From contig NZ_CP107918.1 of the NCBI RefSeq assembly GCF_036014195.1, positions 5,208,001 to 5,272,000 of the forward strand: a stretch of 64,000 bases of DNA. The letters run 5' to 3'. Under the pieces are notes generated by a model that did no database searches, was not told the origin of the DNA, and saw only the letters and a list, made by a program, of their open reading frames with translations. A program made the position numbers and the translations under genes. How positions within the stretch are numbered: the stretch's first letter is position 1; each line of letters opens with the position of its first letter. Shown piece by piece: positions 44,147 to 61,563 of this stretch. This DNA comes from Streptomyces sp. NBC_00442 (GTDB taxonomy: Bacteria > Actinomycetota > Actinomycetes > Streptomycetales > Streptomycetaceae).

Positions 44147-44206
44147 CTGTCCCCCTCGTTGGGCTGGGCCTGGGGGTGCGCCCCGGGAATGTGCAGCACG
44201 GCTGCG

Positions 44207-45013: not shown

Positions 45014-45042
45014 GGTGTCCTCCCGTGTGGCGCTCCCGGATC

Positions 45043-45813: not shown

Positions 45814-45865
45814 GGTAACCCCCAGTGTCGTTGGCGACGTTCGGGGGGCACTGTGCGTCCGCCTC

Positions 45866-45881
45866 CTAGAGGCGGGATCGA
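45866..45881 (-). promoter_or_regulatory. Weak SARP-like repeat upstream of the minimal-PKS operon
   Basis: CTAGA (45866) and ATCGA (45877) lie eleven bases apart, about 55-70 bases before the cyclase start. Each differs by one base from the CTYGA pattern seen at the other operons. Confidence 0.35.
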
Positions 45882-45895
45882 GCCACGCACGCGTC

Positions 45896-45929
45896 GGACC
45901 CCGCCCTGTGGGGGGAGAGGGCGGGGTCC
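45896..45929 (-). terminator. Hairpin terminator of the SARP gene
   Basis: A perfect 12-bp stem (GGACCCCGCCCT with AGGGCGGGGTCC) and ten-base loop lies downstream of the regulator stop at 45971 and isolates it from the PKS operon. Confidence 0.8.
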
Positions 45930-45970
45930 GGACGCGTTGCTGCCGGGCGGTCGGGCCGCCCGTGCGCCGC

Positions 45971-46789
45971 TCAGGCGGCGAAGAGGTCGAGCACCGGGCG
46001 GCGCCCGGCCAGGTGCGAGTCGAGCGCCGGGTCACCGGCGAGCACCGCGCGGTGCAGCTGCTGGAGCCGCGCCGACGGGTCGAGACCCAGCTCCTCGGCG
46101 AGCCCGCGCCGCAGGTTCTGGAACACGTCCAGCGCCTGCCACTGCCGGCCGGAGCGGTAGAGCGCCACCATGCACTGGGCGTGCAGGCCCTCGTGCAGCG
46201 GGTGACGAGCCGTCAAAGAAGTGAGTTCCGCGAGCAGTTGCATGTGCCGCCCGAGCCGCAGATCGGAGTCGATGCGCTGCTCCAGGACACCGAGCCTGCT
46301 CTCCTCCAGGCGCACCAGCTCGATCTCCAGGAGCGGGCCGAGGCGGACGTCCACCAGGGCGGGTCCGCGCCACATGCCGAGCGCGTCGCGGTAGAGGGCC
46401 GCCGCGCTCTCGTCGTCGCCGCGCTCGGCCGCGCCGCGCCCGGTCGCCACCAGACGGTCGTACTCGTGCACGTCCACGTCGCCCGGGGTCACTTCGAGGA
46501 GGTAGCCGCCGTGCCGGGTGGCCAGCACCTCGCGTGCGGTGTAGGGGCTGTCCGGGCCGAGCGCCCCCGCGATCAGCCGGCGCAGCTGAAGGATGTACGT
46601 CTGGAGGGTGGTCAGCGCGCTGCGGGGCATGTCGGCCCCCCAGATCTCCTCCATCAGCGTCGGCACGGGCATGACCTGGTTGGCGTACACCGAGAGCAGC
46701 GCCAGTATCTGACGGGGCTTGCCGGCGCTCGGGACGACCGACGTGCCGCCCGATTCGGCCGTGAGCGGACCGAGAACCTTGATCTCCAT
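45971..46789 (-). CDS. SARP-family pathway activator
   Basis: The 272-residue protein has an N-terminal OmpR-type winged helix (MEIKVLGPLTAESGG, LQTYILQLRRLIAG) and a C-terminal bacterial transcriptional activation domain (EYDRLVATGRGAAERGD, HEGLHAQCMVALYRSGRQ). This is the ActII-ORF4/DnrI plan. It is expected to bind TCGAG-like direct repeats with 11-base period, and such repeats precede most operons of block 1. The ATG at 46789 has GGAGGA. It marks the right border of the polyketide cluster. Confidence 0.93.
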   Translation of the reverse strand: MEIKVLGPLTAESGGTSVVPSAGKPRQILALLSVYANQVMPVPTLMEEIWGADMPRSALTTLQTYILQLRRLIAGALGPDSPYTAREVLATRHGGYLLEVTPGDVDVHEYDRLVATGRGAAERGDDESAAALYRDALGMWRGPALVDVRLGPLLEIELVRLEESRLGVLEQRIDSDLRLGRHMQLLAELTSLTARHPLHEGLHAQCMVALYRSGRQWQALDVFQNLRRGLAEELGLDPSARLQQLHRAVLAGDPALDSHLAGRRPVLDLFAA

Positions 46790-47088
46790 GGGATTCCTCC
46801 GGGGTCGGATCTGCCGGATGACCCGATGGTGTGCGCCACCCGGCTCCAAGCACCCTCAAAAGCTGTCACCCGGGCCCGAGTTGTGGCAGTGCCGGGCTCC
46901 TGAACCCGGCATGTGAGTGTCCTGGACACAGGTATGAAAGTTTCATGTGCATCCCGTGAGCGCGGCACTGGGGCGGATTCGTCCGACCCGGCAGAGTTCT
47001 GGACGTCGGGCCGACCAGGAGTCGAGTACCGGCGGCTAGGGGGACACGTTCCCCCGGGCCTTCACCAGTTGTCTGCCAGGGGGAAAAC
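46790..47088. promoter_or_regulatory. Divergent SARP/RiPP intergenic region with twin palindromes
   Basis: No gene is supported. Two perfect 13-bp palindromes, GTGTCCTGGACAC (46917-46929) and ATGAAAGTTTCAT (46934-46946), are separated by four bases, with centres 17 bases apart. An imperfect inverted repeat (CCGGGC...ACCCGG) lies at 46892-46909. These are candidate operators for the SARP gene, the RiPP gene, or both. Confidence 0.5.
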
Positions 47089-47244
47089 ATGAACGCGAAT
47101 CTCGGCCTCGGTCTCACCGTCTCCGCCAGTGACGACCTCGTGATCGAGGAGTTCGGACAGTCCTCCTACTCGTTGCAGGCCGCGCTCTACACCCAGTGCA
47201 TCGCGAGTTCGCTGCTGGTCACCGAGTCCGCCCAGCACGCCTGA
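47089..47244 (+). CDS. Putative RiPP precursor peptide
   Basis: A 51-residue ORF with CCAGGGGGAAAAC before its ATG ends in TGATG, sharing bases with the start of the cyclodehydratase gene. The N-terminal part (MNANLGLGLTVSASDDLVIE) is leader-like, with acidic residues at 15-16 and 20-21. The C-terminal part contains several heterocyclisable residues: Ser25, Ser26, Ser28, Thr35, Cys37, Ser40, Ser41, Thr45, Ser47, in the tail ALYTQCIASSLLVTESAQ. It does not match thiopeptide, bottromycin or goadsporin cores that I recognise. The cleavage site is unknown. Confidence 0.72.
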   Translation: MNANLGLGLTVSASDDLVIEEFGQSSYSLQAALYTQCIASSLLVTESAQHA

Positions 47245-49538
47245 TGGCATCTGTGCGGACCGCGGAGCCCCGCCTGGGGTTCAAGCCGCACCTGCGGGTC
47301 GAGCAGGTGCCGGGTGAAGCGGTGTACCTGATCTCCGACCAGCGGGTGACCGCTCTGCACGGCGAGCAGATCGCCTGCCTCGCCCCGCTCCTCGACGGCA
47401 CCAGGCCTCTCGACCGGATAACGGCAGACGCCGGGGACACTCTCCAGGCGGGCCAGGCGGCCCGACTGGTCCAGCGCCTGAACGGCGCCGGGCTTCTCTC
47501 GGACCGCGGCCCGGCAGAGGTGGCACCCCAGATCGCGGCTGAGCAGGCGTACTGGGAGGCGGCGGGCCTGGACGGTACCGCCACGGTGGCTGATCGCCCG
47601 CACACGCTGGTACGGGCCCTCTCGGTGGGCAGCGCAGATGTACGGGCTCTGGTCGATTGCCTGACCACCGCGGGCCTGACCGCCCTCGCCCCCGAGAACG
47701 ACTGCCCGGACGCGCTGACCGTCGTCCTCTGTGACGACTACCTCGACCCCGCCCTCGCCGTGGTGGACGCCGCTCACCGTGCGGCAGGCCGCCGCTGGCT
47801 TCCGGTGAAGACCGAGGGAACCGAGCAGTGGATCGGCCCGTTCTTCGGGGACCCCGACGGGCCCTGCTGGTCCTGCCTGGCCGAACGCCTGTGGCGGTCC
47901 CGCCCCGTGGAGGCCCACGTCCAGCGGATGCTGGGACGATCAGGCCCGGTGCTCCGACCCTCGTGCGCTCTGCCGGCCGCACGAGTGGCCGCCATGCAGA
48001 CCGCCGCGTTCGAAGCGGCCAAGTGGCTCTCGGGATACCGGCACTCCAGCCAGCTGTCCCTGCGAACGATCGATGGGCTCACTCTCGCCGACGAGCTCCA
48101 CCCGGTGGTGAGGCGTCCGCAGTGCGCGGAGTGCGGCGAGCCGGGTATGACAGCCGCGCACGTGCAGACACCTGTGGTGCTGCGATCGCGCTTGAAGGTT
48201 GATACGGGCGGCGGCGGACACCGCACGATGAGCCTGGATCAATTCATGCACCGCTACGGTCACTTGATCGACCCGGTGACTGGTCTCGTCCGCGAAATCC
48301 GGCGTGACCCCCGCGGCCCCGAGTTCTTCAACTCGTTCTGCGCCGGGACCAATCCCGCCGCCGGCAAGGGCGGGATCGGCGGGATACGGGCCGGACTGCG
48401 CTCCACCTGCGGTGGCAAGGGAGCCACCGAACTGCAGGCCAGGGTAGGTGCGCTGGCGGAGGCCCTTGAGCGTCACTCCGGCCAGTTCGAGGGTACGGAA
48501 ACCGTCGTGCGCGGCAGCTTCGCCACTCTCACCGACGAGGCCGTCCACCCCGACACCGTGCAGCTCTACGACCCCCGGCAGTTCGGCGGACGTGCGGAGT
48601 GGAACGCGGCGCACGGCCCCTTCCAGCACATCTGTGATCCGTTCGACGAGGAGGCGGAGACCGACTGGACACCCATATGGTCGGTCACCGAAGAGCGCCG
48701 GAAACTGCTGCCCACCGCACTGCTCTATTACGGAGTGACGCAGTCGCCGGGCCACGTCTCCTTCTTGAGCACCTCCAACGGCACCGCCGCCGGCGCCAGT
48801 CTGGAAGACGCGGTGCTCCAGGGGTTCCTCGAACTCGTCGAGCGTGATGCCCTCGCCCTGTGGTGGTACAATCGGACTCGTCAGCCCGGCGTCGACCTCG
48901 ACGCTTTCGACGATCCCTGGATCGCCGAACTCCAGCGTGTACATGCGTCGTTGGACCGGGAAGTGTGGGTACTCGACCTGACCGCCGACCTCGGAATCCC
49001 CGTGATGGCCGCCCTTTCGAGGCGTACGGACCGCGCGTCGGGGCAGGCGGAAGACATCATGCTCGGCTTCGGCGCCCACTTCGACCCCGCGATCGCGCTG
49101 CGCCGCGCCCTGACCGAGCTCAACCAGATGATGCCGCACGTGGTGACAGCGGACGGCGGCATGTCCCGCACGCTGACCGAGGACCCGGACATACAGGAGT
49201 GGCTGCGCACTGCGGCAGTCCTGGCCTACCCCTATCTGGCCCCTTCGGACGCGGCGCCCACCGGTCCGGACACGCACCTCTACACGCCGCACGACGACCT
49301 GCGTGACGACATCGTGGCAGCAGTGGAGATCCTCAAGGCCAAGGGGCTGGAACTCCTGGTCCTCGACCAGACAAGACCCGATGTCGGACTGCCGGTGGTC
49401 AAGGTGGTGGTGCCCGGACTCAGACCCCACTGGGCCCGCTACGCTCCCGGACGCCTCTTCGACGTCCCCGTGGAGCTCGGCAGACTGGCCGCGCCGACCC
49501 CGTACGAGGACCTCAACCCGGTCCCCCTCTTCCTCTGA
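47244..49538 (+). CDS. Fused ThiF-like/YcaO azoline cyclodehydratase
   Basis: The 764-residue protein has an N-terminal peptide-recognition (RRE-like) region (about 1-90), a ThiF-like domain with a zinc tetrathiolate formed by Cys208/Cys211 (GPCWSC) and Cys294/Cys297 (PQCAEC), and a YcaO domain (about 370-764) with GGKGATELQARVGALAEALE and the ATP-site segment NGTAAGASLEDAVLQGFLEL. It ends in NPVPLFL, close to the proline-rich terminus of azoline-forming YcaO proteins. It should convert Cys, Ser or Thr of the adjacent precursor into azolines, using ATP. The TGATG overlap couples it to the precursor. Confidence 0.9.
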   Translation: MASVRTAEPRLGFKPHLRVEQVPGEAVYLISDQRVTALHGEQIACLAPLLDGTRPLDRITADAGDTLQAGQAARLVQRLNGAGLLSDRGPAEVAPQIAAEQAYWEAAGLDGTATVADRPHTLVRALSVGSADVRALVDCLTTAGLTALAPENDCPDALTVVLCDDYLDPALAVVDAAHRAAGRRWLPVKTEGTEQWIGPFFGDPDGPCWSCLAERLWRSRPVEAHVQRMLGRSGPVLRPSCALPAARVAAMQTAAFEAAKWLSGYRHSSQLSLRTIDGLTLADELHPVVRRPQCAECGEPGMTAAHVQTPVVLRSRLKVDTGGGGHRTMSLDQFMHRYGHLIDPVTGLVREIRRDPRGPEFFNSFCAGTNPAAGKGGIGGIRAGLRSTCGGKGATELQARVGALAEALERHSGQFEGTETVVRGSFATLTDEAVHPDTVQLYDPRQFGGRAEWNAAHGPFQHICDPFDEEAETDWTPIWSVTEERRKLLPTALLYYGVTQSPGHVSFLSTSNGTAAGASLEDAVLQGFLELVERDALALWWYNRTRQPGVDLDAFDDPWIAELQRVHASLDREVWVLDLTADLGIPVMAALSRRTDRASGQAEDIMLGFGAHFDPAIALRRALTELNQMMPHVVTADGGMSRTLTEDPDIQEWLRTAAVLAYPYLAPSDAAPTGPDTHLYTPHDDLRDDIVAAVEILKAKGLELLVLDQTRPDVGLPVVKVVVPGLRPHWARYAPGRLFDVPVELGRLAAPTPYEDLNPVPLFL

Positions 49539-49600: not shown

Positions 49601-50245
49601 ATGCGTATCGACCGCCTCGCGGCCCGTGAACTCGGCGAGTTCTGGTCGCTGCGTGAGGACGTCATGGTCCTGTTCGGCCAGAACACCGTGCTGCGCACGC
49701 CCTGGGGGGAGCTGCGTCTGGAACGGCCGGGCCCGCTGCTGCGCGAGGCGCTGCACCGGATGCAGCTCGGCCCCGTGTCGCTGGGCAACGTGGTGCCGGG
49801 CTTCCCCGGCTATGACGTGCCCGAGGGCGAGTGGAACGGGGCGTCCAGGCAGCTGCTCCGCGCCCTGTCACCGCTCCAGCACGTCATCGTGCGTCACCTC
49901 GCGATCGGTGCCTCACCGCTCCTGAGTGTGGTTCCGATCTCACCCCGCGCCAGATTCCGCCCGCCCTCGGTGGCCCCAGGAGGCGAACTCCGTGTGCCGA
50001 AGGAAGCAGTGCTGCGCGGGCCGGGGCGCGACCCTGTGATCGCGTACGAGGGTGGTGATCATCGCGTCGAGCTGCACGGCCCGGACGCTCCGCGACTGCT
50101 CGTCCACCTACAGGGCGGGAAGGGCGATTTCCAGTCACCGCTCGATGTTCCGCTGCCGCAGGCGGTGGTGCGTGCCGCCCGCGCCTACGCGGTCGCCGCG
50201 GGCGTGCTCTCGGCGGTTGATCTCAACGGTGCGGCCCGGCTGTGA
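49601..50245 (+). CDS. Short SagB-like/dehydrogenase-associated protein
   Basis: The 214-residue protein follows the cyclodehydratase with a GGAAGGA ribosome site. Its start (LREDVMVLFGQNTVLRTPWG, PGPLLREALHRMQLGPVSLG) looks like the peptide-binding front half of SagB/McbC-type azoline dehydrogenases. The FMN-binding nitroreductase half is missing: the frame ends cleanly where it would begin. It may be a stand-alone substrate-binding subunit, a remnant, or an unrelated RiPP protein. The absence of a dehydrogenase domain suggests azolines rather than azoles unless an enzyme encoded elsewhere acts. Confidence 0.5.
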   Translation: MRIDRLAARELGEFWSLREDVMVLFGQNTVLRTPWGELRLERPGPLLREALHRMQLGPVSLGNVVPGFPGYDVPEGEWNGASRQLLRALSPLQHVIVRHLAIGASPLLSVVPISPRARFRPPSVAPGGELRVPKEAVLRGPGRDPVIAYEGGDHRVELHGPDAPRLLVHLQGGKGDFQSPLDVPLPQAVVRAARAYAVAAGVLSAVDLNGAARL

Positions 50246-50290: not shown

Positions 50291-50343
50291 CCGGTCCGGA
50301 GACGTGCTTCTGACCGGGCACCGAAAGCCATGGGGGACAGTTG
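50288..50343 (+). repeat. Conserved kinase-gene leader, copy 1 (copy 2 at about 52807-52862)
   Basis: GATCCGGTCCG, GCTTCTGACCG and ATGGGGGACAGTTG are shared in the same order by the leaders of kinase genes 1 and 2. The ATG here opens a four-codon frame (Met-Gly-Asp-Ser-stop) that overlaps the TTG start. The GGGGGA in it doubles as the ribosome site. Confidence 0.7.
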
Positions 50344-52719
50344 AAAGCGGAAATAGTCGACGAGGCGGAGGTCTTCTTCGCTGATGTCGGCCATCAGGTG
50401 TTGCCACCTCGAAAAGCGATTGCCATCACGGCCGTGGTGCTCCTCGGCTTCTTCGTCATCGACGGCTCGTACGTCTGGTTCGAGCAGCCACCGCTGTGGG
50501 AGCTCGTCGGGGCCCTCCTTGGCTTTGCCGCCATCCTGGGGTTGCAACTCGGTCATTCTTTTCCCAGTCTTGCGCCGTGGTTCTCCCGCTACAGGTACGT
50601 GACGTGGGGGCTCCAGGGTCTGCTCGCCTATCTTCCGATCCTCCGGTTCGGGGTGGCTTGGGGCGGTATGGCGGTGTTCTTCACCGCTTCTGCGGTGCTG
50701 GTGTTCCCGGCGGTCACCGGCTGGTCGCTCTTCTGCCTCGGAGCCTTCGCGCAGAGCCTCGTCTTCTACCATTTCCGTACAGGCTGGAACTCCGCCGCCT
50801 ACGCGGCGGTCGAGTCGGTCCTGATCCCGTTGATCGTGATCGGGCTCTCGCGGATGTCCGACATGATCGTGAAACTCCACCGCTCACGCGAGGAACTCTC
50901 GCGTCTGGCCGTGGCAGGCGAACGGCTTCGGTTCGCGCGCGATCTGCATGACGTTCTGGGCTTCAGCCTCTCAGCGATTTCCCTCAAGTGCGAGCTTGCC
51001 TACCGGTTGCTGGCGGATGCGCCTGCCAAGGCGCACGAGGAGCTCGGCGACGTGCTGAGCACCTCGCGCAAGGCGCTCGCCGACGTCCGCTCGGTCAGCC
51101 GGGGTTACCGCGAGATGTCTCTCTTCGGCGAGGCGAACGCCGCTGTCTCGATGCTGTCGGCCGCGGGCATCCGGACCCAACTGAAGATCGAAAGCACCGG
51201 GCTGCCCGCGGCGGCGGATACCGTCCTCGCTGCTGTGCTGCGTGAGGGCCTGACCAATATGCTGCGCCACAGCAAGGCGGAACAGTGCGAAATCAGGGCC
51301 GAACTCCGGGGGCGCACCGCGGTGTTGATCCTCGCCAACGACGGTGCCGGGCGCGCGAAGCATCCCAAGGGCGCCGCGGACGGCGGCCTGGCCGCGCTCG
51401 GCTCCCGGGTCGAGGAGATCGGAGGCACTCTCGCCCATGGCTGCGACGGGCAGGGCTGGTTCCGCCTCGAAGCCGTCGTCCCCCTCCCCGACCGTGCCGC
51501 GCACGCACTGAAGGCGGGGCCGCCGTCCGCACGCCAGTTCAGCGATGCCGAAAGGCCCGTGCGCGAGTCCCGTGGTCTCGGCCACGCCGACATGGTGCCG
51601 CGCGCCGCGTCAGCGATCGCCCTCTCGGTACTGGTCGGCTACTTCTTGGCCTACTCGATGGTCGCCCTGTCCTTCCAGCCCACCTTCGGCGAGGGAGTGG
51701 GGCTTGAGCTCTGCCTGTTCGCGGCGCTCGTGCTCCAATGCGTGGTCTCCTTCCAGTGGCGGTTCGCCAGGTCGGTCCGCAGACCGAGGCTGCTGCGCTA
51801 CGGCGCGCTGGGGGCCCTCGTACTGCTTCACTGCGTGCCCCAGCTGTTCCTCGGCCGGATCTACCTGGGTCTGCCGGGCTTTGTCGCGGGCTCGGCACTT
51901 CTGGTGCTGCCCGCCGCTGCCGGGTGGCCGGCCCTCGCCGCGGTGACGGCCGGGGGAGGCGTCTCGCTCTACCTGGCCGAGGGGTCGCTCGAAGACATTA
52001 CCTACGCGTCGGCGTACACCGTCATTTGCGCCCTCGTCGTCTTCGGCCTGTCCCGCATGGCCCAGCTGGCCTCCGAACTCCACTGGTCCCGCGCGGAGAT
52101 CGCCCGGTTGGCGGTGACGACGGAGCGGCTCCGGTTCGCTCGGGACCTGCACGATCTGCTGGGGTTCAGCTTGTCCGCGATCACATTGAAGTGTGAGTTG
52201 GTTCGGCGTCTCGCGGAGAGCCGGCCGGTGCAGGCGCAGGAGGAGCTGACGGAGGTGTTGCAGATCGCGCGCCAGGCGCTCGCGGATGTGCGGACAGTGG
52301 CTGACGGGCGGCAGCGGATGAGCCTGTCGGCGGAGGCGGAGAGCGCCATGGCGATGCTGGCTGGTGTGGGCATCCGGGCTACCGTGGACACGGACTGCGG
52401 TGAACTGCCCGGTGACGTGGACACGGTGCTCGCCACCATGCTGCGCGAGGGTCTGACCAACATGCTGCGGCACAGCAAGGCCGCCCACTGCGAGATCACG
52501 GCGGAGCGGACCACCGCCGGAGTGCGGTTGACCCTGGTCAACGACGGCGTCGACGGGGACGCGGCGCCGGGGCTCGACTCCACAGTCGACGGCGGCAGCG
52601 GGATCGGCAACCTGACGACCCGGGTCAACGCGGTGAACGGCCGGCTGGAGGCGGGGGCTCGGGCGGACGGCTGGTTCGAGTTGAAGGCCGAGGTTGCCCT
52701 CCTGGCGGCTGCCGCCTGA
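50341..52719 (+). CDS. Double sensor histidine kinase 1
   Basis: The 792-residue membrane protein contains two full sensor-kinase modules in one chain. Module a (about 1-385) has about five membrane helices, a HisKA_3 dimerisation domain with His203 in RLRFARDLHDVLGFSL, an N-box LREGLTNMLRHSKAE and a G-box with LANDG. Module b (about 415-792) repeats this with His604 in RDLHDLLGFSL and ends in a GSGIGNL G-box. Both belong to the DesK/NarX-like class that phosphorylates LuxR-type regulators. The TTG start is supported by GGGGGA and by the same start in the three paralogues. It is the first of four tandem copies. Confidence 0.88.
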   Translation: MKAEIVDEAEVFFADVGHQVLPPRKAIAITAVVLLGFFVIDGSYVWFEQPPLWELVGALLGFAAILGLQLGHSFPSLAPWFSRYRYVTWGLQGLLAYLPILRFGVAWGGMAVFFTASAVLVFPAVTGWSLFCLGAFAQSLVFYHFRTGWNSAAYAAVESVLIPLIVIGLSRMSDMIVKLHRSREELSRLAVAGERLRFARDLHDVLGFSLSAISLKCELAYRLLADAPAKAHEELGDVLSTSRKALADVRSVSRGYREMSLFGEANAAVSMLSAAGIRTQLKIESTGLPAAADTVLAAVLREGLTNMLRHSKAEQCEIRAELRGRTAVLILANDGAGRAKHPKGAADGGLAALGSRVEEIGGTLAHGCDGQGWFRLEAVVPLPDRAAHALKAGPPSARQFSDAERPVRESRGLGHADMVPRAASAIALSVLVGYFLAYSMVALSFQPTFGEGVGLELCLFAALVLQCVVSFQWRFARSVRRPRLLRYGALGALVLLHCVPQLFLGRIYLGLPGFVAGSALLVLPAAAGWPALAAVTAGGGVSLYLAEGSLEDITYASAYTVICALVVFGLSRMAQLASELHWSRAEIARLAVTTERLRFARDLHDLLGFSLSAITLKCELVRRLAESRPVQAQEELTEVLQIARQALADVRTVADGRQRMSLSAEAESAMAMLAGVGIRATVDTDCGELPGDVDTVLATMLREGLTNMLRHSKAAHCEITAERTTAGVRLTLVNDGVDGDAAPGLDSTVDGGSGIGNLTTRVNAVNGRLEAGARADGWFELKAEVALLAAAA

Positions 52720-52859
52720 CGCCCAGGCAGGGACGGGCCACGACGTCGTACGTCCACGCAGCGTCGTGGCGGGGCCGACGCGGCACGCGGCATTTCCGCA
52801 CAGCTGGATCCGGTCCGAAGAGGGGCTTCTGACCGAGGGCCACGAGGCATGGGGGACAG

Positions 52860-55226
52860 TTGGAAGCAGAAGTCGTCGGCCGTTCGGAACGAATATCCGC
52901 AGACGTGGGCAGCGTGTTCCTTCCGCCGCGTAAGGCAATAGCCGTGACCGCGGCCGCATTGCTCGGATTCTTCGTGATCGACGCCGTCTACATCTGGGCC
53001 GAGAGTCCGCCATGGTGGGAACTCGGCGCGGCCCTGATCGGATTCCTGGTCATCATGGGCCTGCAACTCGCGCACTCTTTTCCGCAGTTCGTGCCTGAAC
53101 TTCATCGATACCGGTATGCGACCTGGAGCCTCCAGGCGGTCCTGGCCTACGCGCCGCTGGCCGTGTTCGGCTTCGCGTGGGGCGGGATGACGGAGTTCCT
53201 GACCGCCTCGTCGGTCCTCGTCCTCCCCGCGGTGATCGGCCTGCCGCTTTTCGGCGCCGGAGTGTTCACCTGCTGGAGCCTGTACAGCGAGCGCGACACC
53301 AGCACCCTTGTCTACAACGTCCTCGAAGGCGCCCTGATCCCCCTGATCATCATCGGACTCTCCCGGATGTCCGACTTGATCATCAAGCTGCACCGGTCCC
53401 GAGAGGAGCTCTCCCGGCTCGCGGTGGCGGGCGAGCGGCTCCGGTTCGCCCGCGACCTCCACGACGTCCTGGGCTTCAGCCTGTCCGCGATCTCCCTCAA
53501 GTGCGAGCTGGCGTACCGACTGTTGGCGGACGCGCCCGCCAAGGCACAGGAAGAGCTCGCCGACGTGCTGCGCACCTCGCGCAAGGCGCTGGCCGACGTC
53601 CGCTCGGTGAGCCGCGGCTACCGCGAGATGTCCCTGTCCGGCGAGGCCAAGGCGGCGGTCTCCATGCTGAGCGCCGCGGGCATCCGCACCACGCTCAAGT
53701 TCGAGGCCGGACAACTGCCCGCCCTGGTGGATACCGTCCTCGCGACCGCGCTGCGCGAGGGCCTCACCAACATGCTGCGCCACAGCAAGGCCGAGAGCTG
53801 TGAGATCCGGGCCGAACGCGTGGGCGCGAGCGCCGTTCTGACCCTCACCAACGACGGCATCGGCCGCGTCCGGCCCGCCAGGACCGCCACGGACGGCGGT
53901 CTCGCCGCGCTGGAGTGCCGCATCGCCGCGCTCGGCGGCACCCTCGGCCACGGCTGCGACGGCCAGGGCCTGTTCCGCCTCGAAGCCGTCGTACCCCTGC
54001 CCGACCGCGCGGAGGAGGACCGCGACGGGCATCCCGCGGCCGTCCCCGGCACGGACGACACCGAAGGGCCGGCGGCGCAGCCGCACGGCCACCGCGACCT
54101 CGTGCCCCGGGCCGCCTCCGCGATGACGCTCACCGTCCTGGTCGGCTACTTCCTCGCGTACTCGGTGGTCGCCGCCTCCTACCACCTGCCGCTCGGCCAG
54201 GCCGTCGCCACCGAACTCTGCATGTTCGCCACGCTCCTGCTGCAACTCACGATCTCCTTCCAGTGGCGCTTCGCCCGGCTGGCCCGGCACGGCCGCCCGC
54301 TGCGCTACGGCGCCCTGGCCGCGCTGCTGCTGCTGCAGTGCGTGCCCTGGTTCTTCCTCGGCCCGATCTACCTCGGCATGCCCGGCTTCGTCGCCGGCTC
54401 GGCGCTCCTGGTGCTGCCGGCGTACGGGGCCTGGTCGCTGAGCGCCGCCGTCTGCGTGGCCAGCGAGATCGTCTTCTACCAGGTGGACCGGGTCACGACG
54501 GAGCTCTTCTACGAGGCGGGCTACACCGTCATCTGTTCCCTGGTCGTGTTCGGCCTGTCCCGCATGGCCCAGCTCGCCTCCGACCTCCACTGGTCCCGCA
54601 CGGAGATCGCGCGGCTCGCGGTGACGACGGAACGCCTGCGCTTCGCCCGCGACTTGCACGACCTGCTCGGATTCAGCCTGTCCGCGATCACGCTGAAGTG
54701 CGAGCTGGTCCGCCGCCTCGCGCAGACCAGACCCGTACAGGCGCAGGCGGAGCTGACGGAAGTCCTCCAGATCGCCCGCCAGGCCCTCGCCGACGTACGG
54801 ACGGTGGCGGACGGCCGGCAGCGGATGAGCCTGTCCGCGGAGGCGGAGAGCGCGACCGCGATGCTGGCCGGCGTCGGGATCCGCGCGACGGTGGACACCG
54901 ACTGCGGCGACCTGCCCGGCGACGTGGACACGGTGCTCGCGACGATGCTGCGCGAAGGCCTGACCAACATGCTGCGGCACAGCAAGGCCGCCCACTGCGA
55001 GATCAAGGCCGAACGCACCGACGCCGGCGTGCGGCTGACCCTCGTCAACGACGGCGTCGACGGCTGCGCGGCGGCGGGCCTCGGCTCCACGGCCGACGGC
55101 GGCAGCGGGATCGGCAACCTGACGACCCGGGTCAAGGCCGTGAACGGCCGTCTCGTGGCGGGGGCCCGGCCGGACGGCCGCTTCGAACTCAAGGCAGAGG
55201 TCGAACTCCTCGCCACCGCGGCGTGA
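52860..55226 (+). CDS. Double sensor histidine kinase 2
   Basis: The 788-residue paralogue has the same plan as the preceding gene: module a with His201 in FARDLHDVLGFSL and module b with His600 in RDLHDLLGFSL, each after about five hydrophobic helices. Both N-boxes (LREGLTNMLRHSKA) and G-boxes are intact. Module a segments are closest to module a of kinase 1, and b to b, so the internal duplication predates the gene duplication. The TTG start follows TGGGGGACAG. Confidence 0.88.
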   Translation: MEAEVVGRSERISADVGSVFLPPRKAIAVTAAALLGFFVIDAVYIWAESPPWWELGAALIGFLVIMGLQLAHSFPQFVPELHRYRYATWSLQAVLAYAPLAVFGFAWGGMTEFLTASSVLVLPAVIGLPLFGAGVFTCWSLYSERDTSTLVYNVLEGALIPLIIIGLSRMSDLIIKLHRSREELSRLAVAGERLRFARDLHDVLGFSLSAISLKCELAYRLLADAPAKAQEELADVLRTSRKALADVRSVSRGYREMSLSGEAKAAVSMLSAAGIRTTLKFEAGQLPALVDTVLATALREGLTNMLRHSKAESCEIRAERVGASAVLTLTNDGIGRVRPARTATDGGLAALECRIAALGGTLGHGCDGQGLFRLEAVVPLPDRAEEDRDGHPAAVPGTDDTEGPAAQPHGHRDLVPRAASAMTLTVLVGYFLAYSVVAASYHLPLGQAVATELCMFATLLLQLTISFQWRFARLARHGRPLRYGALAALLLLQCVPWFFLGPIYLGMPGFVAGSALLVLPAYGAWSLSAAVCVASEIVFYQVDRVTTELFYEAGYTVICSLVVFGLSRMAQLASDLHWSRTEIARLAVTTERLRFARDLHDLLGFSLSAITLKCELVRRLAQTRPVQAQAELTEVLQIARQALADVRTVADGRQRMSLSAEAESATAMLAGVGIRATVDTDCGDLPGDVDTVLATMLREGLTNMLRHSKAAHCEIKAERTDAGVRLTLVNDGVDGCAAAGLGSTADGGSGIGNLTTRVKAVNGRLVAGARPDGRFELKAEVELLATAA

Positions 55227-55302
55227 GGGACCGCGGGACGCCCGCATGAAGGACGGCGCGCCGTCCGCGTGCCGATCCGCTGGGCGAGGCATCGCCCGCG
55301 AC

Positions 55303-55333
55303 CGAAGAAGTGCAAGCTCATGGGGGAGAGTTG
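55303..55333 (+). repeat. Conserved kinase-gene leader, copy 3 (copy 4 at about 57869-57903)
   Basis: CGAAGA...GCAAGCTCATGGGGGAG followed by TTG is shared by kinase genes 3 and 4. The ATG again opens a four-codon frame (Met-Gly-Glu-Ser/Thr-stop) overlapping the TTG start. Confidence 0.7.
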
Positions 55334-57820
55334 AGGACGGATGCGGCCGGCCGCACCGAGCGGGAACCGGTCGGAGGTCAGGGCCGCACGGCACAGGGCC
55401 GGTCGCTCCCTGGGGGGTGGGCGGTGCCTCAGGGGCAGGCGCTGCCGCAGCGCGCCGCGATCGCCATCACCGCCGTCGTGCTGGTCGGCTTCTTCGTCAT
55501 CGATGGTGCGTGGGTGTGGTTCGCCCACCCGCCGCTGTGGGAAATGCCGGTCGCCGTACTCGGCTTCGCCGCCATCCTGGCGCTCCAGCTCGCACACTCC
55601 TTCCCGGGCCTCGCGCCGTGGTCCTCATCCCCGCGCCGCCGATGTGCGACCTGGGGGCTCCAAGGGCTGCTCACCTATCTGCCGATCCTGATGTTCGGGG
55701 TCGGCTGGGGAGGGATGGCGGCCTTCCTGACGGCGTCCGCGGTGCTCGTCTTCCCCGCGGTGGTCGGCTGGCCCCTCTTCTGCCTCGGGGCGCTGGGGGA
55801 CAGCCTCGTGTTCCTCCACTTCGGGACCGGCTGGGAGACCGCGGTGTACGCGGCGATCGAGGCGGTCCTGATTCCGTTGATCGTGGTCGGTCTTTCGCGG
55901 ATGTCGGACATGATCGTGAAACTGCACCGTTCGCGTGAGGAGCTGACACGGCTGGCGGTGGCGGGGGAGCGGCTGCGGTTCGCGCGTGATGTGAACGAGG
56001 TGCTCGGCTTCGGCCTGTCGGCGATGTCGCTCACATGTGAGTTGGCGTACCGGCTGTTGGCGAAGGAGCCGGCCAGGGCGTACGAGGAGATCGGCGCGGT
56101 GCTCGTCACCTCGCGCAGGGCGCTGGCGGATGTGCGCTCGGTGAGCCGGGGCTACCGCGAGATGTCGTTGTCCGACGAGGCGCACGGGGCCGTGCCGATG
56201 CTGTCGGCGGCGGGCATCCGCGTCTCGCTCGCCGTCGACGTGGGGGAGCTGCCCCGCACGGTGGACACGGTGCTCGCGGCGGTGCTGCGCGAGGGCCTGA
56301 CGAACGTGCTGCGGCACAGCAAGGCCGAGGCGTGTGACATCCGGGCCGAAGTGAGGGACGCCTCCGCCGTGTTGACCCTCGCCAACGACGGCGTCGGGCG
56401 GGCCCGGGTGCCCAGGGCCGGCGGCACGGACGAAGGCCTGGCCGCGCTCGGCGCCCAGGTGCGGGAGCTCGGCGGCACTCTGTCCCACGGCCCGGACGAG
56501 CAGGGCCGGTTCCGCCTCGAAGCGGCCGTCCCGCTACGCGATTTCACCGGGCCGAGAGCCGCCGGGGCCCAGGAATCCGCCGGGGCCCAGGAACCCGGCG
56601 TGCGAGGGGAGTCCGGCGCGCACGCGGCCGACGAGCCCGACCCGGTGGCCCCTGCGCTTCGTGGACTGGGGCACCCCGATCTGCTTCCGCGTGCGGCCGC
56701 CGCGATCACGTTCGCGGTCCTGGTGGGCTACTTCCTGGCGTACTCGGAGATAGCCATGGCCTACCACCCCGCGCTCGGCCACGGCGCCGTGACGGAGCTC
56801 TGCATGGTCGCCACGCTCGTGCTGCAGCTCGCCATCTCGTTCCCGTGGCGATTCGACCGGCCCGTCCGCCGCCCGCGGGCGCTGCGGGCGGCTGCGCTGG
56901 CCGCGCTGGTGCTCCTCCAGTTCGCTCCGTTGCTGTTCCTCGGCCCGACCTGGATCGGACTCCCGGGCTTCGTCGGGGGCGCGGCGCTCCTGACGCTGCC
57001 GGCCGCGGCCGCCTGGCCCCTGCTCGCCGTCTTCACCGCCGTGAGCGCGGCGGAGCTGCACCTGACGGGCAACGGAGCCTGGGACATCACGTACCAGAGC
57101 GCCTACACCGTCATCTGCTCGTTGGTCGTGTTCGGTCTGTCGCGGATGGCGCAGTTGGCGTCGGAGCTGCATCGTTCGCGTGCGGAGATCGCGCGGCTCG
57201 CGGTGACGACGGAGCGGCTGCGGTTCGCTCGTGATCTGCACGACCTGCTGGGGTTCGGTCTGTCGGCGATCACGCTGAAGTGCGAGTTGGTGCGACGGCT
57301 CGTGGAGCGTCAACCCGCCCGTGCGCGGGCTGAGTTGACGGAGGTGCTGGGGATCGTGCGGCAGGCGCTCGCGGATGTGCGGGTGGTCGCGGAGGGCCGG
57401 CAGCGGATGAGTCTGGTCGCGGAGGTGGAGAGCGCGACCGCGATGCTGGCCGGGGTGGGGATCCGTGCGCGCGTGGACACGGCGGGCTGCGGTGAGCTGC
57501 CCGGCGACGTGGACACGGTGCTGGCGACCATGCTGCGCGAGGGCCTGACGAACGTACTGCGGCACAGCAGGGCCGCACGCTGCGAGATCCGGGCGGAACG
57601 AACCCGAGCCGGGGTACGGCTGACCCTGGCCAACGACGGGTTGCACGCACGCGCCGTCCCGGAGCCCGGCTCCACGGCCGGAGCGGCCGACGGCGGCAGC
57701 GGGCTCGGTAATCTGACGACGCGGGTCGAGGCGGTGAACGGCCGTCTCGTGGCGGGGGCGCGGCCCGACGGCTGGTTCGAGTTGAAGGCGGAGGTCGACC
57801 TGCCCGCCGTGGCCGGTTGA
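55331..57820 (+). CDS. Double sensor histidine kinase 3, with a degenerate first H-box
   Basis: The 829-residue paralogue keeps the two-module layout, but the first H-box reads RFARDVNEVLGFGL: the phospho-accepting histidine is Asn222 (codon AAC at 55994-55996) and the following acid is Glu. Module a retains its N-box (LREGLTNVLRHSKAE) and NDG motif, so it may still bind ATP and phosphorylate a partner, or act only as a sensor. Module b is intact (RDLHDLLGFGL). The TTG at 55331 is chosen by analogy with the paralogues; an in-frame GTG at 55310 lacks a ribosome site. A longer soluble N-terminus of about 40 residues precedes the first helix. Confidence 0.87.
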   Translation: MRTDAAGRTEREPVGGQGRTAQGRSLPGGWAVPQGQALPQRAAIAITAVVLVGFFVIDGAWVWFAHPPLWEMPVAVLGFAAILALQLAHSFPGLAPWSSSPRRRCATWGLQGLLTYLPILMFGVGWGGMAAFLTASAVLVFPAVVGWPLFCLGALGDSLVFLHFGTGWETAVYAAIEAVLIPLIVVGLSRMSDMIVKLHRSREELTRLAVAGERLRFARDVNEVLGFGLSAMSLTCELAYRLLAKEPARAYEEIGAVLVTSRRALADVRSVSRGYREMSLSDEAHGAVPMLSAAGIRVSLAVDVGELPRTVDTVLAAVLREGLTNVLRHSKAEACDIRAEVRDASAVLTLANDGVGRARVPRAGGTDEGLAALGAQVRELGGTLSHGPDEQGRFRLEAAVPLRDFTGPRAAGAQESAGAQEPGVRGESGAHAADEPDPVAPALRGLGHPDLLPRAAAAITFAVLVGYFLAYSEIAMAYHPALGHGAVTELCMVATLVLQLAISFPWRFDRPVRRPRALRAAALAALVLLQFAPLLFLGPTWIGLPGFVGGAALLTLPAAAAWPLLAVFTAVSAAELHLTGNGAWDITYQSAYTVICSLVVFGLSRMAQLASELHRSRAEIARLAVTTERLRFARDLHDLLGFGLSAITLKCELVRRLVERQPARARAELTEVLGIVRQALADVRVVAEGRQRMSLVAEVESATAMLAGVGIRARVDTAGCGELPGDVDTVLATMLREGLTNVLRHSRAARCEIRAERTRAGVRLTLANDGLHARAVPEPGSTAGAADGGSGLGNLTTRVEAVNGRLVAGARPDGWFELKAEVDLPAVAG

Positions 57821-57900
57821 CGGACAGTCACGTCCCCACGCGCCACGCGGAACCGCACCACTCGCCATCGAAGAGGCAGAAGCAAGCTCATGGGGGAGAC

Positions 57901-60483
57901 TTGAGGATCGACGCAGTCGGCCGCGCGGAGGGGGGACCGGTGGGGGCGCCGGTGCGCGGGGATGGGCGCGAGGAGCGGCGCGGAGAGCGCAACGGGGAGT
58001 GGCGCGGGGAGTGGCGCGAGGCGGGGTGGGCGCTTCCTCGGCGTGCCGCGATCGGCGTCACCGCCGTGGTGCTCGTCGGGTTCTTCGTCATCGACGGCGC
58101 CTTCCTCTGGAAGGAGCACCCGCCGGTCTGGGAGGGCGTCGGCGCGGTCCTCGGCTTCCTCGCGATCTTCGTTCTCCAACTGGCCCACTCCTACCCGGCG
58201 TTCTTTCCCCGCCTCGCCCGCCACCGCACGGCGACCTGGACGACGCAGGCGCTGCTCTCCTACCTCCCGATGCTGCTGGTCGGCGATGCGTGGGGCGGCA
58301 TGCAGGCGTTCCTCGGCGCGTCCGCCGTCCTGGTGTTCCCCGCGGCGGTCGGATGGCCGCTCCTCGGCGCGATCACCTGCGTCACCTGCACGGTCCTCGT
58401 GGAGATCGGAAGCGACAACGCGACCATTCTGTACAGCACCTTCGACGCCGTCCTGATCGGCCTCATCGTGATCGGCCTCTCACGGACGTCGGACCTGATC
58501 GTGAACCTGCACCGTTCGCGTGCCGAGCTGTCGCGGCTCGCCGTGGCGGAGGAGCGGCTGCGCTTCACCCGCGATCTGCACGACGTCCTCGGCTTCAGCC
58601 TCTCCGCCGTCGCCCTCAAGTGCGAGCTGGCGCACCGGCTGTTGGCGGAGGCGCCGGCCAAGGCGTACGAGGAACTCGGCGAGGTGCTCGCCACCTCGCG
58701 CAAGGCGCTGGCCGATGTGCGCTCGGTGAGCCGGGGCTACCGCGAGATGTCGCTGTCCGACGAGGCCGACGCGGCCGTGTCGATGCTGTCCGCGGCCGGC
58801 ATCCGTACGACGCTGGCGTTCGAGGTCGGCCGCCCGCCCGCGGTGGTGGACACCGCGCTGGCGGCCGTACTGCGGGAGGGCCTGACGAACCTGCTGCGCC
58901 ACAGCAAGGCCGAGGCCTGCGAGATCCGGGCCGAACTCCGCGCGGGCGCGGCGGTGTTGACCCTGGCCAACGACGGCAGCGCGCGGGTGCCGGGTGCCGG
59001 GGCGGGCGCGGGTGACGGCGCCGGGGGCCTCGCCGCGCTCGACTCCCGGGTACGGGAGCTGGGCGGCGCCCTGGCCCACGGCCCGGACGGGCGAGGCTGG
59101 TTCCGGCTCGAAGCGACCGTTCCGCTGCCCGACGGGCCGGAGCGTGCCGCGCGTCCGGAGCGTGCCGCGGGGCCGGAGTTCGGCGCGGGCCCGGAGTTCG
59201 GCGCGGGCCCGGAGGCCGGTGCGAGGCGGGGGCCCGGGGTGGATGGGCCCCTCGCGGATGACGCCGGCGTGTTCACGGGCGCCGGGCACGGTCGTCTGAC
59301 GGGCGCCGGGCACGGTCGTCGGGCCGCGCGCCCGGGGCGCGGCCCCGGGCGGCCCGAGCTGCTTCCGCGTGCGGCGTCGGCGATCGCGTTCGCGGTCCTG
59401 GTCGGCTACTTCCTGGCGTACTCCGTGATCGCCATGTCCTACCTGCCGCCGCTCGGCGAGGCCGTGGCGATCGAGCTCTGCATGGCCGCCACGCTCGCCG
59501 TGCAGTGCGCGGTCTCCTTCCAGTGGCGGTTCGACCGCCTCGCCCGACACGGCCGTCGGCTGCGCCACGGCGCCCTTGCCGTGCTGGTGCTGCTCCAGGG
59601 CCTGCCGTGGCTGTTCTTCGGCCCGATCCGGCTGGGGCTTCCCGGCTTCGTCGGGGGCGCGGCGCTCCTGTCGCTGCCGGCCGCGGGCGCCTGGCCGTTG
59701 ATCGTCGGCGTGACGGTGGCCGGCGACATCGCGGTGCACGAGGCGGGCGGCCCGCCCTGGGACTGCATGGACGAGGGCGCGTACACGGTGATGTGCGCTC
59801 TGGTCGTGTTCGGCCTGTCCCGCATGGCGCAGCTGGCGTCCGAACTGCACCGTTCCCGTACGGAGATCGCCCGCCTCGCGGTGACGACGGAGCGCCTGCG
59901 CTTCGCCCGCGATGTGCACGACCTGCTCGGGTTCAGCCTGTCCGCGATCACGCTGAAGTGCGAGCTGGTGCGCCGCATCGCGGAACGCCACCCCGTGCGG
60001 GCGGGGGTGGAGCTGACGGAGGTGCTGGGGATCGCGCGGCAGGCGCTGGCCGACGTACGGACGGTGGCGGACGGGCGGCAGCGGATGAGCCTGTGCGCGG
60101 AGGCGGAGAGCGCGACGGCGATGCTGGCGGGGGTGGGGATCCGGGCGACGGTCGACACGGCGGGCTGCGGGAAGCTGCCGGGCGACGTGGACACGGTGCT
60201 CGCGACGATGCTGCGCGAAGGCCTGACCAACATGCTGCGGCACAGCAGGGCCGCGCACTGCGAGATCCGCGCGGAGCGAACGCCCGGCGGGGTGCGGCTG
60301 ACCCTGGCCAACGACGGATTGCACGCGTGCGCGGTACCGGGGCTCGGCTCCCCCGTGGAGGGCGGCAGCGGCCTCGGCAACCTGACGACCCGGGTCGAGG
60401 CGGTCAACGGCCGCTTGACGGCGGGCGCCCGGCCGGACGGCTGGTTCGAGCTGACGGCCGAGGTCGAGCTGACGGCGGTATGA
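57901..60483 (+). CDS. Double sensor histidine kinase 4
   Basis: The 860-residue paralogue has both H-boxes intact (RFTRDLHDVLGFSL and RFARDVHDLLGFSL). It is longer than its sisters because of a basic, Arg/Glu-rich N-terminus and an inter-module linker expanded by short repeats (GPEFGA twice, GAGHGR twice). The TTG start at 57901 matches the conserved leader; the frame continues upstream to 57817 only by overlapping kinase 3. It ends 196 bases from the convergent response regulator. Confidence 0.87.
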   Translation: MRIDAVGRAEGGPVGAPVRGDGREERRGERNGEWRGEWREAGWALPRRAAIGVTAVVLVGFFVIDGAFLWKEHPPVWEGVGAVLGFLAIFVLQLAHSYPAFFPRLARHRTATWTTQALLSYLPMLLVGDAWGGMQAFLGASAVLVFPAAVGWPLLGAITCVTCTVLVEIGSDNATILYSTFDAVLIGLIVIGLSRTSDLIVNLHRSRAELSRLAVAEERLRFTRDLHDVLGFSLSAVALKCELAHRLLAEAPAKAYEELGEVLATSRKALADVRSVSRGYREMSLSDEADAAVSMLSAAGIRTTLAFEVGRPPAVVDTALAAVLREGLTNLLRHSKAEACEIRAELRAGAAVLTLANDGSARVPGAGAGAGDGAGGLAALDSRVRELGGALAHGPDGRGWFRLEATVPLPDGPERAARPERAAGPEFGAGPEFGAGPEAGARRGPGVDGPLADDAGVFTGAGHGRLTGAGHGRRAARPGRGPGRPELLPRAASAIAFAVLVGYFLAYSVIAMSYLPPLGEAVAIELCMAATLAVQCAVSFQWRFDRLARHGRRLRHGALAVLVLLQGLPWLFFGPIRLGLPGFVGGAALLSLPAAGAWPLIVGVTVAGDIAVHEAGGPPWDCMDEGAYTVMCALVVFGLSRMAQLASELHRSRTEIARLAVTTERLRFARDVHDLLGFSLSAITLKCELVRRIAERHPVRAGVELTEVLGIARQALADVRTVADGRQRMSLCAEAESATAMLAGVGIRATVDTAGCGKLPGDVDTVLATMLREGLTNMLRHSRAAHCEIRAERTPGGVRLTLANDGLHACAVPGLGSPVEGGSGLGNLTTRVEAVNGRLTAGARPDGWFELTAEVELTAV

Positions 60484-60679
60484 GCCCGAAAGCCCCCGGG
60501 CCAAGCCCACCGGGGCGGCCCTGGCCCGGTGGCCGGTCCGGCCCCGGTGAAGGGCGACCGCGCCGGTGCGGCCCCGGCTCCGTGCAGTCGCGCCCCCGGC
60601 TCCGTGCAGCCGCGCCCACGCCCCGGGAGGAACGTTTCCCTCGGGGCTGCCGCGGGTGTCGCCGGGAGACGGGCCGGAG
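60484..60679. repeat. Convergent gap with a 22-bp tandem duplication and hairpin
   Basis: No gene is supported. A 22-bp unit beginning CCCGGCTCCGTGCAG occurs twice in tandem with one mismatch (60573-60594 and 60595-60616). CCACCGGG pairs with CCCGGTGG at about 60509-60534, a possible terminator for the kinase array. Confidence 0.5.
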
Positions 60680-61294
60680 TCAGACCGAGTGCAGCCAGCC
60701 CGCTTCCCGGGCGATACGGATGGCATCGACCCGGTTACGCGCGTTGAGTTTGCTGACGGCCGAAGTCAGATAGTTGCGTACGGTGCCGGACGACAGGTGC
60801 AGCCGGGACGCGATCTGGCCGGCCTCCATGCCCTCGGACGCCAGTTGCAGCACCTCCCGCTCGCGGTCGGTGAGCGGGGACGGGCCCGAGTCGAGCGTGG
60901 CGAGCGCCAGCTGCGGGTCGATGACGCGCTCGCCCGCCGCCACCTGGCGGATCGCGGCGCACAGGCTGTCGGGGTCGGAGTCCTTCGGGAGGAACCCGGA
61001 GACGTGGGCGGCCAGCGCCCGTCTGAGGTTCCCCGGTCTGCCCAGACTGGTCAGGATGAGGGTGCGGCACTCCGGTACCGAGGTGTGCAGTCCCGCGGCG
61101 GCGGTGATCCCGTCGGTCCCGGGAAGGTCGATGTCGAGGACGGCGACATCCGGCCGCATGGCCATCGCGGTCGGCACGATGTCCGTACCCGACGACAGCT
61201 CGGCGACCACTTCCAGGTCGGACTCCAGTTCAATGAGCGACACCAATGCCTTGCGCAGCATATGCATGTCTTCGGCAATCAGAACGCGCACCAT
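60680..61294 (-). CDS. NarL/DesR-type response regulator
   Basis: The 204-residue protein has a receiver domain (MVRVLIAEDMHMLRKALVSL, phosphorylation Asp in VAVLDIDLPGTDG, Lys in GFLPKDSD) and a C-terminal LuxR helix-turn-helix (LTDREREVLQLASEGM, LSSGTVRNYLTSAVSKL). It is the only response regulator in the window and converges on the kinase array, so it is the probable shared target of the eight kinase modules (inference from class match and position). CGGGGGG precedes the ATG. Confidence 0.92.
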   Translation of the reverse strand: MVRVLIAEDMHMLRKALVSLIELESDLEVVAELSSGTDIVPTAMAMRPDVAVLDIDLPGTDGITAAAGLHTSVPECRTLILTSLGRPGNLRRALAAHVSGFLPKDSDPDSLCAAIRQVAAGERVIDPQLALATLDSGPSPLTDREREVLQLASEGMEAGQIASRLHLSSGTVRNYLTSAVSKLNARNRVDAIRIAREAGWLHSV

Positions 61295-61520: not shown

Positions 61521-61562
61521 GTGAACATGAACGGACACCCCAGCTCGGAAGGTGTTCTCTGA
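61521..61562 (+). CDS. Possible 13-residue leader ORF
   Basis: GTG-AAC-ATG... encodes a 13-residue peptide ending in PSSEGVL, preceded by GGGAGAGGTGAC. Its TGA ends one base before the ATG of the next gene. It may serve translational coupling or attenuation, or be incidental. Confidence 0.3.
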   Translation: MNMNGHPSSEGVL

Positions 61563-61563
61563 C

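Follow-up and report, generated by a model that had tools for sequence, protein, structure and literature searches.

Why would one bacterium line up four double sensor kinases opposite a single response regulator, beside the genes for a small modified peptide? The question is raised by the window, a stretch of 64,000 nucleotides (positions 5208001-5272000) from the 7.7 Mb single-contig genome of Streptomyces sp. NBC_00442. The original prediction described four tandem genes, each encoding two DesK-type kinase modules, with one convergent NarL-type regulator, and this layout was confirmed. From left to right the locus consists of polyketide genes and a SARP-family activator gene on the minus strand, a divergent promoter, the precursor gene of a ribosomally synthesized and post-translationally modified peptide (RiPP), a YcaO gene, a gene for a 214-aa protein and the four kinase genes. 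To the right of the kinases lie the convergent regulator gene and then genes for a DUF6059 protein and a fatty acyl-AMP ligase (FAAL). We consider it probable that the locus lets cells signal to one another through a RiPP and is an actinobacterial counterpart of ComQXPA; the signal would pass from the RiPP to the kinase, the regulator and a promoter palindrome. The array is not an isolated oddity, and the observation is more general than the first reading of the sequence. The SARP partner, the single-module ancestry, the repeated doublings, the decay of module a and the type-matched receptors had not been anticipated.

Co-occurrence and co-variation of peptide and kinase genes

In a genus sample of 392 genomes, YcaO proteins of this family (E <= 1e-60) were found in 116 genomes and the kinase (E <= 1e-48) in 136. 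Both searches scored the two best candidates per genome, so the per-genome counts are lower bounds. The best-scoring 80 of the 122 YcaO places outside the window were analysed as loci, referred to here by number. Two of them, L059 and L060, come from the same genomes as L018 and L017, which belong to 16 named loci that were added to the 80, Streptacidiphilus, Kibdelosporangium, Lentzea and Amycolatopsis among them. At the 80 loci the kinase is present in 79, the regulator in 78, a SARP in 60 and the SagB catalytic domain in 20; ketosynthase (KS)- or FAAL-like genes occur in 30, and the regulator lies on the strand opposite to YcaO in 42. Clustering of the 1037 called genes into families, which is stricter than the locus-level presence counts, left only YcaO (80), kinase (75), regulator (74) and SARP (55) recurring in more than half of the loci, and the next most frequent families were FAAL-like (30) and KS (22). 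Among the 42 lower-scoring YcaO places a kinase match lies within 5 kb in 31 and is absent from that range in 11. The same gene order is found in Kibdelosporangium, Streptacidiphilus and Lentzea.

Variation within the window clade was measured in seven species (the window, L013, L014, L015, L018, L019 and L020; 21 pairs). Mean identity is 99.4% for the regulator (range 98.5-100%), 98.4% for the SARP, 85.5% for YcaO, 81.2% for the precursor leader and 33.9% for the core, and mean nonsynonymous divergence (dN) is 0.75 for the core versus 0.003 for the regulator. In kinase 1 the catalytic parts of modules b and a average 91% and 79%, and membrane domains a and b average 67.5% and 60.4%. These comparisons bear out the earlier claim that the membrane domains diverge over conserved kinase cores. 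A search of 296 relatives, in which at most three candidates were scored per genome, gave no further close species, and its counts per genome are likewise lower bounds.

The core was compared with kinase copies 1 and 2 in the six species that have both copies, with 720 permutations. Core types are shared by L013/L019 (73% identity), L014/L015 (64%) and L018/L020 (50%), and all other pairs of the six stand at 43% or less. The same three pairs share membrane domain a of copy 1 (89, 80 and 82%; other pairs at most 64%) and membrane domain b of copy 1 (81, 68 and 82%; other pairs at most 63%). The correlation of the core with copy-1 membrane domains a and b is 0.87 and 0.72, values reached by 18 and 25 of the 720 permutations. 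For membrane domains a and b of copy 2 it is 0.17 and 0.11, and for the catalytic part of copy-1 module b it is 0.08. Membrane domain b of copy 2 is conserved in five of the six species (82-95%) irrespective of the core. The pattern reads as a peptide core and a copy-1 receptor that vary together between species like pherotypes. The suggestion that the RiPP is an obvious candidate ligand is supported by both the co-occurrence and this co-variation.

The association was also followed beyond these six species. Controlling for YcaO, the catalytic part and the regulator, the nine window-clade loci give a partial r of 0.56 (14/3000). Across all loci, the association of core and membrane domain (60 loci and 122 pairs, without L021, L059 and L060) has a partial r of 0.62, which none of 2000 within-cluster permutations reached. 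The pattern is not explained by supposing that sensor domains diverge faster in every case. In clusters with a mean core identity of at least 47% the membrane domain lies within 2 points of the catalytic part (6 lower in one), and it lies 28 and 20 points below in the two whose cores vary most. One cluster is exceptional, having a core identity of 37% and a membrane domain only 3 points below the catalytic part.

Another source of the match of core and receptor may be linked DNA that was transferred as a block or underwent gene conversion, or chance in a small sample, with no functional matching. There are only six species, and between unmatched species silent divergence is 0.55-1.17 in the core and the copy-1 kinase versus 0.22 in the SARP and 0.26 in the regulator, which suggests past exchange. 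However, the YcaO and SagB-derived genes lie between the core and the kinase, and their silent sites have no core-type structure. At silent sites of the KS, thioesterase (TE), SARP, regulator and FAAL genes, pairs with the same core are no closer than unmatched pairs. Transfer or chance is in our view improbable.

Fused kinase modules and the window array

Each kinase has two modules, and each module consists of four to six membrane helices (by hydropathy), the helix pair of the dimerization and histidine phosphotransfer (DHp) domain and an ATP-binding domain. The modules carry HisKA_3 and HATPase_c with the DesK fold, and DesK provides the closest solved structures. The single-module kinase is the usual form; by H-box motif, double-module kinases occur in four of the 80 loci (L059-L062). 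Among the named loci, the three from Streptacidiphilus have single-module kinases, as does Kibdelosporangium, Amycolatopsis has fragments only, and Lentzea L027 has a double kinase together with a second single kinase and regulator. Within the window clade one double kinase is found in L016, L017 and L021, two in L013, L014, L015, L018, L019 and L020, and four in the window only, L022 being cut by a contig end. In L021 (10001-12400) the kinase is split by a frameshift and the FAAL is in several pieces, probably as a result of sequencing errors.

Whole-module identity among the window kinases is 61-70% between a modules, 72-79% between b modules and 43-49% between a and b. A tree built from 126 modules (238 columns) places the window-clade a modules and L062 in one group (support 0.99) and the b modules in another (0.93-1.0). 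Because the a and b modules form separate clades, fusion came before gene duplication in the window clade, as the original prediction had proposed. The double kinases of Lentzea L027, L061 and L145 look like separate doublings. In L061, where modules a and b are sisters in the tree, gene conversion may have occurred instead of a separate fusion. L145 (6306-8762) has a double-module kinase and a regulator, and no YcaO was found there; its module a has Asn in place of the acceptor His, apparently independently of kinase 3 in the window.

The two modules have not kept their motifs equally. Of 82 single-module relatives, all have the phosphoacceptor His and 74 have the G2-region Asn. In the window clade all 18 b modules retain the catalytic motifs that were checked, and all 18 a modules have partly lost the ATP-binding G2 box. 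The motif GSG[IL]GNL is found in 18 of 18 b modules and in none of the 18 a modules, for which DGGLAAL is typical. The window a modules retain the acceptor His except in kinase 3, where Asn replaces it. The H, N and G boxes are therefore not intact in every module, given the G boxes of the a modules and the missing His in module a of kinase 3. AlphaFold2 models based on 22 aligned double kinases reached a mean predicted local distance difference test score (pLDDT) of 76.7 and a predicted template modelling score (pTM) of 0.55. Structure matches that span model residues 187..787 hint at a possible pairing of modules a and b within one chain. Such an intramolecular pair is not claimed because the pTM is only 0.55.

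The membrane domains of the window kinases resemble those of different foreign types. Kinase 2 groups with copy 1 of L014/L015 (a 81/76%, b 67/68%) and kinase 3 groups with copy 1 of L013/L019 (a 81/79%, b 76/76%). Kinase 1 also groups with L013/L019, less strongly (a 80/79%, b 68/67%). Kinase 4 resembles L018/L020 in its module a only (70/72%), its module b reaching 56/54%. No window kinase has a membrane domain b of the copy-2 type (50-54% to copy 2 of L013, L014, L015, L019 and L020). These comparisons make the array look like a collection of different receptor types and not like one receptor in four copies. The precursor has one gene copy in the whole genome, so the idea of four receptors for four own peptides was dropped, and further ligands would have to come from other strains. 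That several related ligands would feed one output, as originally supposed, is still something that we infer.

What might such a set be for? It can be suggested tentatively that it is an eavesdropping repertoire, in which four fused asymmetric pseudo-dimers with membrane types of foreign pherotypes share one regulator and promoter, and in which the peptides of neighbours as well as the strain's own would switch on the antibiotic cluster. The four copies may instead add dosage only, as duplicates of one receptor for the same signal, an explanation that concerns the repertoire and not signalling as such. The single precursor gene would agree with dosage, as would the catalytic parts of module b, which are 80-91% identical among the four kinases. 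However, the four membrane domains differ about as much as between species and group with three different foreign types, and we find a role in dosage alone doubtful.

Parts of the locus, the proposed route and its rivals

The features of the locus are collected in Table 1.

Table 1. Positions and properties of the features at the kinase locus, numbered within the window
Feature	Position	Strand	Remarks
KS, TE and cyclase genes of the adjoining polyketide cluster	42875..46035	-	candidate SARP targets; in most clade loci
SARP-family activator	45971..46849	-	BTAD PF03704 2.5e-46, Trans_reg_C; divergent from precursor
Palindrome TGAAAGTTTCA	46935..46945	.	SARP/precursor divergent promoter; proposed regulator site
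RiPP precursor, 51 aa	47089..47244	+	leader with DLVIEEFG motif, variable core
TOMM-type YcaO with fused leader-binding part	47244..49538	+	YcaO PF02624 7e-103
SagB-family N-terminal part, 214 aa, without nitroreductase domain	49601..50245	+	alignment to L063 homologue
Double-module histidine kinase 1 (membrane, DHp and catalytic ATP-binding parts, twice)	50341..52719	+
Double-module histidine kinase 2	52860..55226	+	membrane domains of L014/L015 copy-1 type
Double-module histidine kinase 3 (open reading frame from 55310)	55331..57820	+	module a His to Asn; L013/L019 copy-1 membrane type
Double-module histidine kinase 4 (open reading frame from 57817)	57901..60483	+	module a of L018/L020 type, module b mixed
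NarL/LuxR-type response regulator, convergent	60680..61294	-	Response_reg 1.5e-19, GerE 1.2e-17
DUF6059 protein	61552-61890	+	flanking gene, candidate output; in most clade loci
FAAL	61993-63708	+	flanking gene, candidate output; in most clade loci

The leader motif of the precursor is constant in the window clade, and the precursor has no Pfam or NCBIfam match. Candidate precursors, with guessed starts, came out of a motif search at 51 of the 80 YcaO loci; 14 named loci other than the window also yielded them. A common leader motif resembling LVIE[DE][FL], with variants, runs through the set, and some of the leaders look like what we take to be nitrile-hydratase-type leaders. The YcaO protein scores above the cut-offs of TIGR03604 and TIGR03882, and a leader-binding YcaO beside a short precursor with a shared leader is the arrangement of TOMM or azol(in)e RiPPs. 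The 214-aa protein, which has no family match in Pfam or NCBIfam, shares 42% identity with a 511-aa SagB homologue from L063 over residues 26-217 of the latter. It ends ahead of the TIGR03605/PF00881 domain that the L063 homologue carries, and the oxidase part of SagB is therefore gone in the window. An azoline, or another YcaO product, is for this reason likelier than an azole. Several other lineages have a near-fixed core motif, namely CICW (L066-L075, L077, L078, L080, L089), CICT (L125, L129-L132, L135, L137) or CFC, and the CICW and CICT lineages, some with a full SagB oxidase, likely make azole peptides.

The promoter between the SARP and the precursor is conserved in the window clade. 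Its palindrome TGAAAGTTTCA is the sole TGAAANTTTCA of the genome, a single place in the window that is visible on both strands. A scan for TGAAA-N(0-2)-TTTCA over 94 loci (1.62 Mb) gave 14 sites, 13 of them on the 5' side of a SARP: in the window, L013-L022, L066 and L027, with the odd site in L023. We propose the palindrome as the site at which the regulator acts in the window clade; in the other lineages a different site must serve. Lentzea L027 has two SARP-kinase-regulator sets, and its palindrome lies at the 5' end of the second set's SARP, ahead of the second kinase.

The proposed route has five steps. The YcaO enzyme, to judge from its family, would bind the leader of the precursor and modify the core. 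The mature core would leave through an exporter encoded outside the segment and be sensed by the membrane domains of the DesK-type kinases. Each kinase has the anatomy of a fused asymmetric pair, in which module b retains its catalytic and acceptor motifs and module a, with its damaged G2 box, may act mainly as sensor or acceptor partner. The single conserved regulator suggests that it is phosphorylated by all four kinases. It would then act at the single palindrome, a conserved site, giving autoinduction and turning on the SARP, which may in turn activate the flanking polyketide cluster. That cluster (window 19493-46035) has a ketosynthase, cyclases, monooxygenases, three EryCIII-like glycosyltransferases and a gene of the non-ribosomal peptide synthetase (NRPS) type. 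The BTAD-domain SARP adjoins these biosynthetic genes, as in SARP-regulated clusters, and its best NCBIfam matches are AfsR/SARP models, with scores under the model cut-offs.

The RiPP may instead be an antibiotic or bacteriocin that the kinases and regulator sense for production or self-protection, in the manner of nisin, with no role in communication. YcaO RiPPs are often antibiotics, and the genes for the kinase and the regulator accompany those for biosynthesis. Goadsporin is described as both an antibiotic and a means of communication in the accessible text of its report (PMC4603692). However, no immunity gene or exporter lies between the SARP and the FAAL in the window, and the first transporter-like family among those listed (of the major facilitator superfamily by appearance) occurs in 14 of the 80 loci. 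The recurrent partner is the SARP, with KS- or FAAL-like genes in the 30 loci given above, and the core varies while the regulator and the SARP do not. A purely antibiotic role appears unlikely to us.

Several findings weigh against the signalling reading. The match with the core is not confined to the membrane domains, because the catalytic part of copy-1 module a follows it too (r 0.65, 34/720). Copy 2 of L018 is of another type, 50-61% identical to copy 2 of other species (membrane b 50-51%), and the window core has no close match and no kinase that can be assigned to it. Of four other clusters, three have no partial association, all their parts co-diverging as by descent, and in one it is suggestive (67/3000). 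Weight is therefore placed on the window clade, in which the association holds beyond common descent, with a hint in one more cluster. The statistics are modest and the species few (six with copies 1 and 2). Pfam and NCBIfam scans found neither an exporter nor a leader peptidase encoded between the SARP and the FAAL. By base composition about 0.15 palindromes are expected per genome, so uniqueness in the genome is weak evidence alone, and among the 94 loci the palindrome is limited to the window clade, L066 and L027. A SARP is absent from the fetched stretch in 20 of the 80 YcaO loci. Finally, 31 kinase places (L139-L168 and L172; three on contigs under 6 kb) have no YcaO by tblastn and no precursor motif. 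The original prediction was to be doubted if the kinases were found routinely without the RiPP genes; the kinase does accompany nearly all of the best YcaO loci and most of the lower-scoring ones, and the 31 places go against it. A SARP stands at 16 of them, SagB at two (L163 and L164) and a double-module kinase at one (L145), and the kinase-regulator pair can therefore exist without this RiPP.

Such places would fit an explanation in which the kinases sense another cue, such as membrane state, the polyketide or envelope stress, and the RiPP genes are a co-regulated output. So would the copy-2 membrane domains, which are conserved in five of six species whatever the core. However, the copy-1 membrane domains match the core types and the intervening genes do not, and faster drift of membrane domains is not general across clusters, the one with the 37% core being exceptional. 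Sensing of another cue is, to our mind, distinctly unlikely.

Other observations concern gene loss and relatives. Streptomyces sp. CB01201 (L016, 8900-9420) has lost the precursor and YcaO and retains the promoter palindrome, the SagB-derived gene, the kinase and the regulator, as would be expected of a receiver-only strain. L163 and L164 have a SARP, SagB, kinase and regulator together and no YcaO was found in them; perhaps another enzyme acts there on an unseen precursor. A family of proteins some 335 aa long, with no evident identity (L134:11021-12028 and relatives), occurs in 22 of the 80 YcaO loci. Plasmid records with YcaO relatives number 17 in Streptomyces and 138 in Rhizobium, and all of these relatives stay below 60% identity (at most 52% among the matches listed).

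Known systems and the meaning of the locus

ComQXPA resembles the window locus in having a modifying enzyme, a precursor, a multi-pass HisKA_3 kinase (PF07730) and a ComA/NarL-type regulator together. According to two reports (PMC4008528, PMC4408185) the regulator is the most and the peptide the least conserved part of ComQXPA, the system has pherotypes, the peptide varies at its active C-terminal end and the kinase in its N-terminal membrane portion, and the census has no case outside Firmicutes. A hypervariable peptide and sensor over a conserved regulator are likewise found in the window clade, whereas other clusters differ. Unlike ComQXPA, the window has YcaO and not the ComQ prenyltransferase, no match to ComX (PF05952), a convergent regulator, a SARP partner, arrays of double-module kinases and an actinobacterial host. 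Because ComQ and ComX are absent, the locus may be said to work like ComQXPA and not to be a member of it.

DesK-DesR shares the kinase fold of each module and, unlike the window, has no peptide gene. DesK itself works as a homodimer of single-module chains and responds to the state of the membrane. In NisRK, as in the window, a RiPP is sensed by a two-component system encoded with it; nisin, however, is a lanthipeptide with exporter and immunity genes and a different class of kinase. Membrane adenylyl cyclases of the AC9 type have two six-helix membrane parts and two catalytic parts per chain, with one site degenerate. The Foldseek match to AC9 (768 columns, TM-score 0.29, root-mean-square deviation 17.9) is a likeness in layout only, the catalytic fold being unrelated. 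AbrC1/C2/C3 of Streptomyces coelicolor has two kinases with one regulator and affects antibiotic production; its kinases are separate, and no RiPP is mentioned in the accessible part of the report (PMC3098853). Goadsporin differs from the window in its fused cyclodehydratase, B protein and dehydratase, and the word kinase is absent from the main text of its report (PMC4603692). SCO3638-3641 of S. coelicolor was considered as the same array and dropped, since the accessible text of the sources lists two kinase-regulator pairs. In the open-licence literature, which leaves most subscription papers outside, no account was found that combines a YcaO RiPP, a two-component system and a SARP, and none of tandem double-module kinases.

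If the signalling reading is true, pherotypes would have evolved a second time, independently, in a layout like that of ComQXPA. The kinases would offer a natural series from a single kinase through fusion and loss of one ATP-site motif to a tandem array, and thus from a homodimeric to an asymmetric receptor. Accounts of signalling in Streptomyces usually centre on small autoregulators, for example butyrolactones. On the present reading much of the genus (this YcaO family is found in 116 of 392 genomes) may also possess a module that signals by ribosomal peptides, in many cases next to SARPs and biosynthetic genes. Silent antibiotic clusters could then be woken by adding the matching peptide, and genome sequence alone would suggest which peptides and receptors to pair. 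It would be a new way for the makers of antibiotics to talk and to listen.

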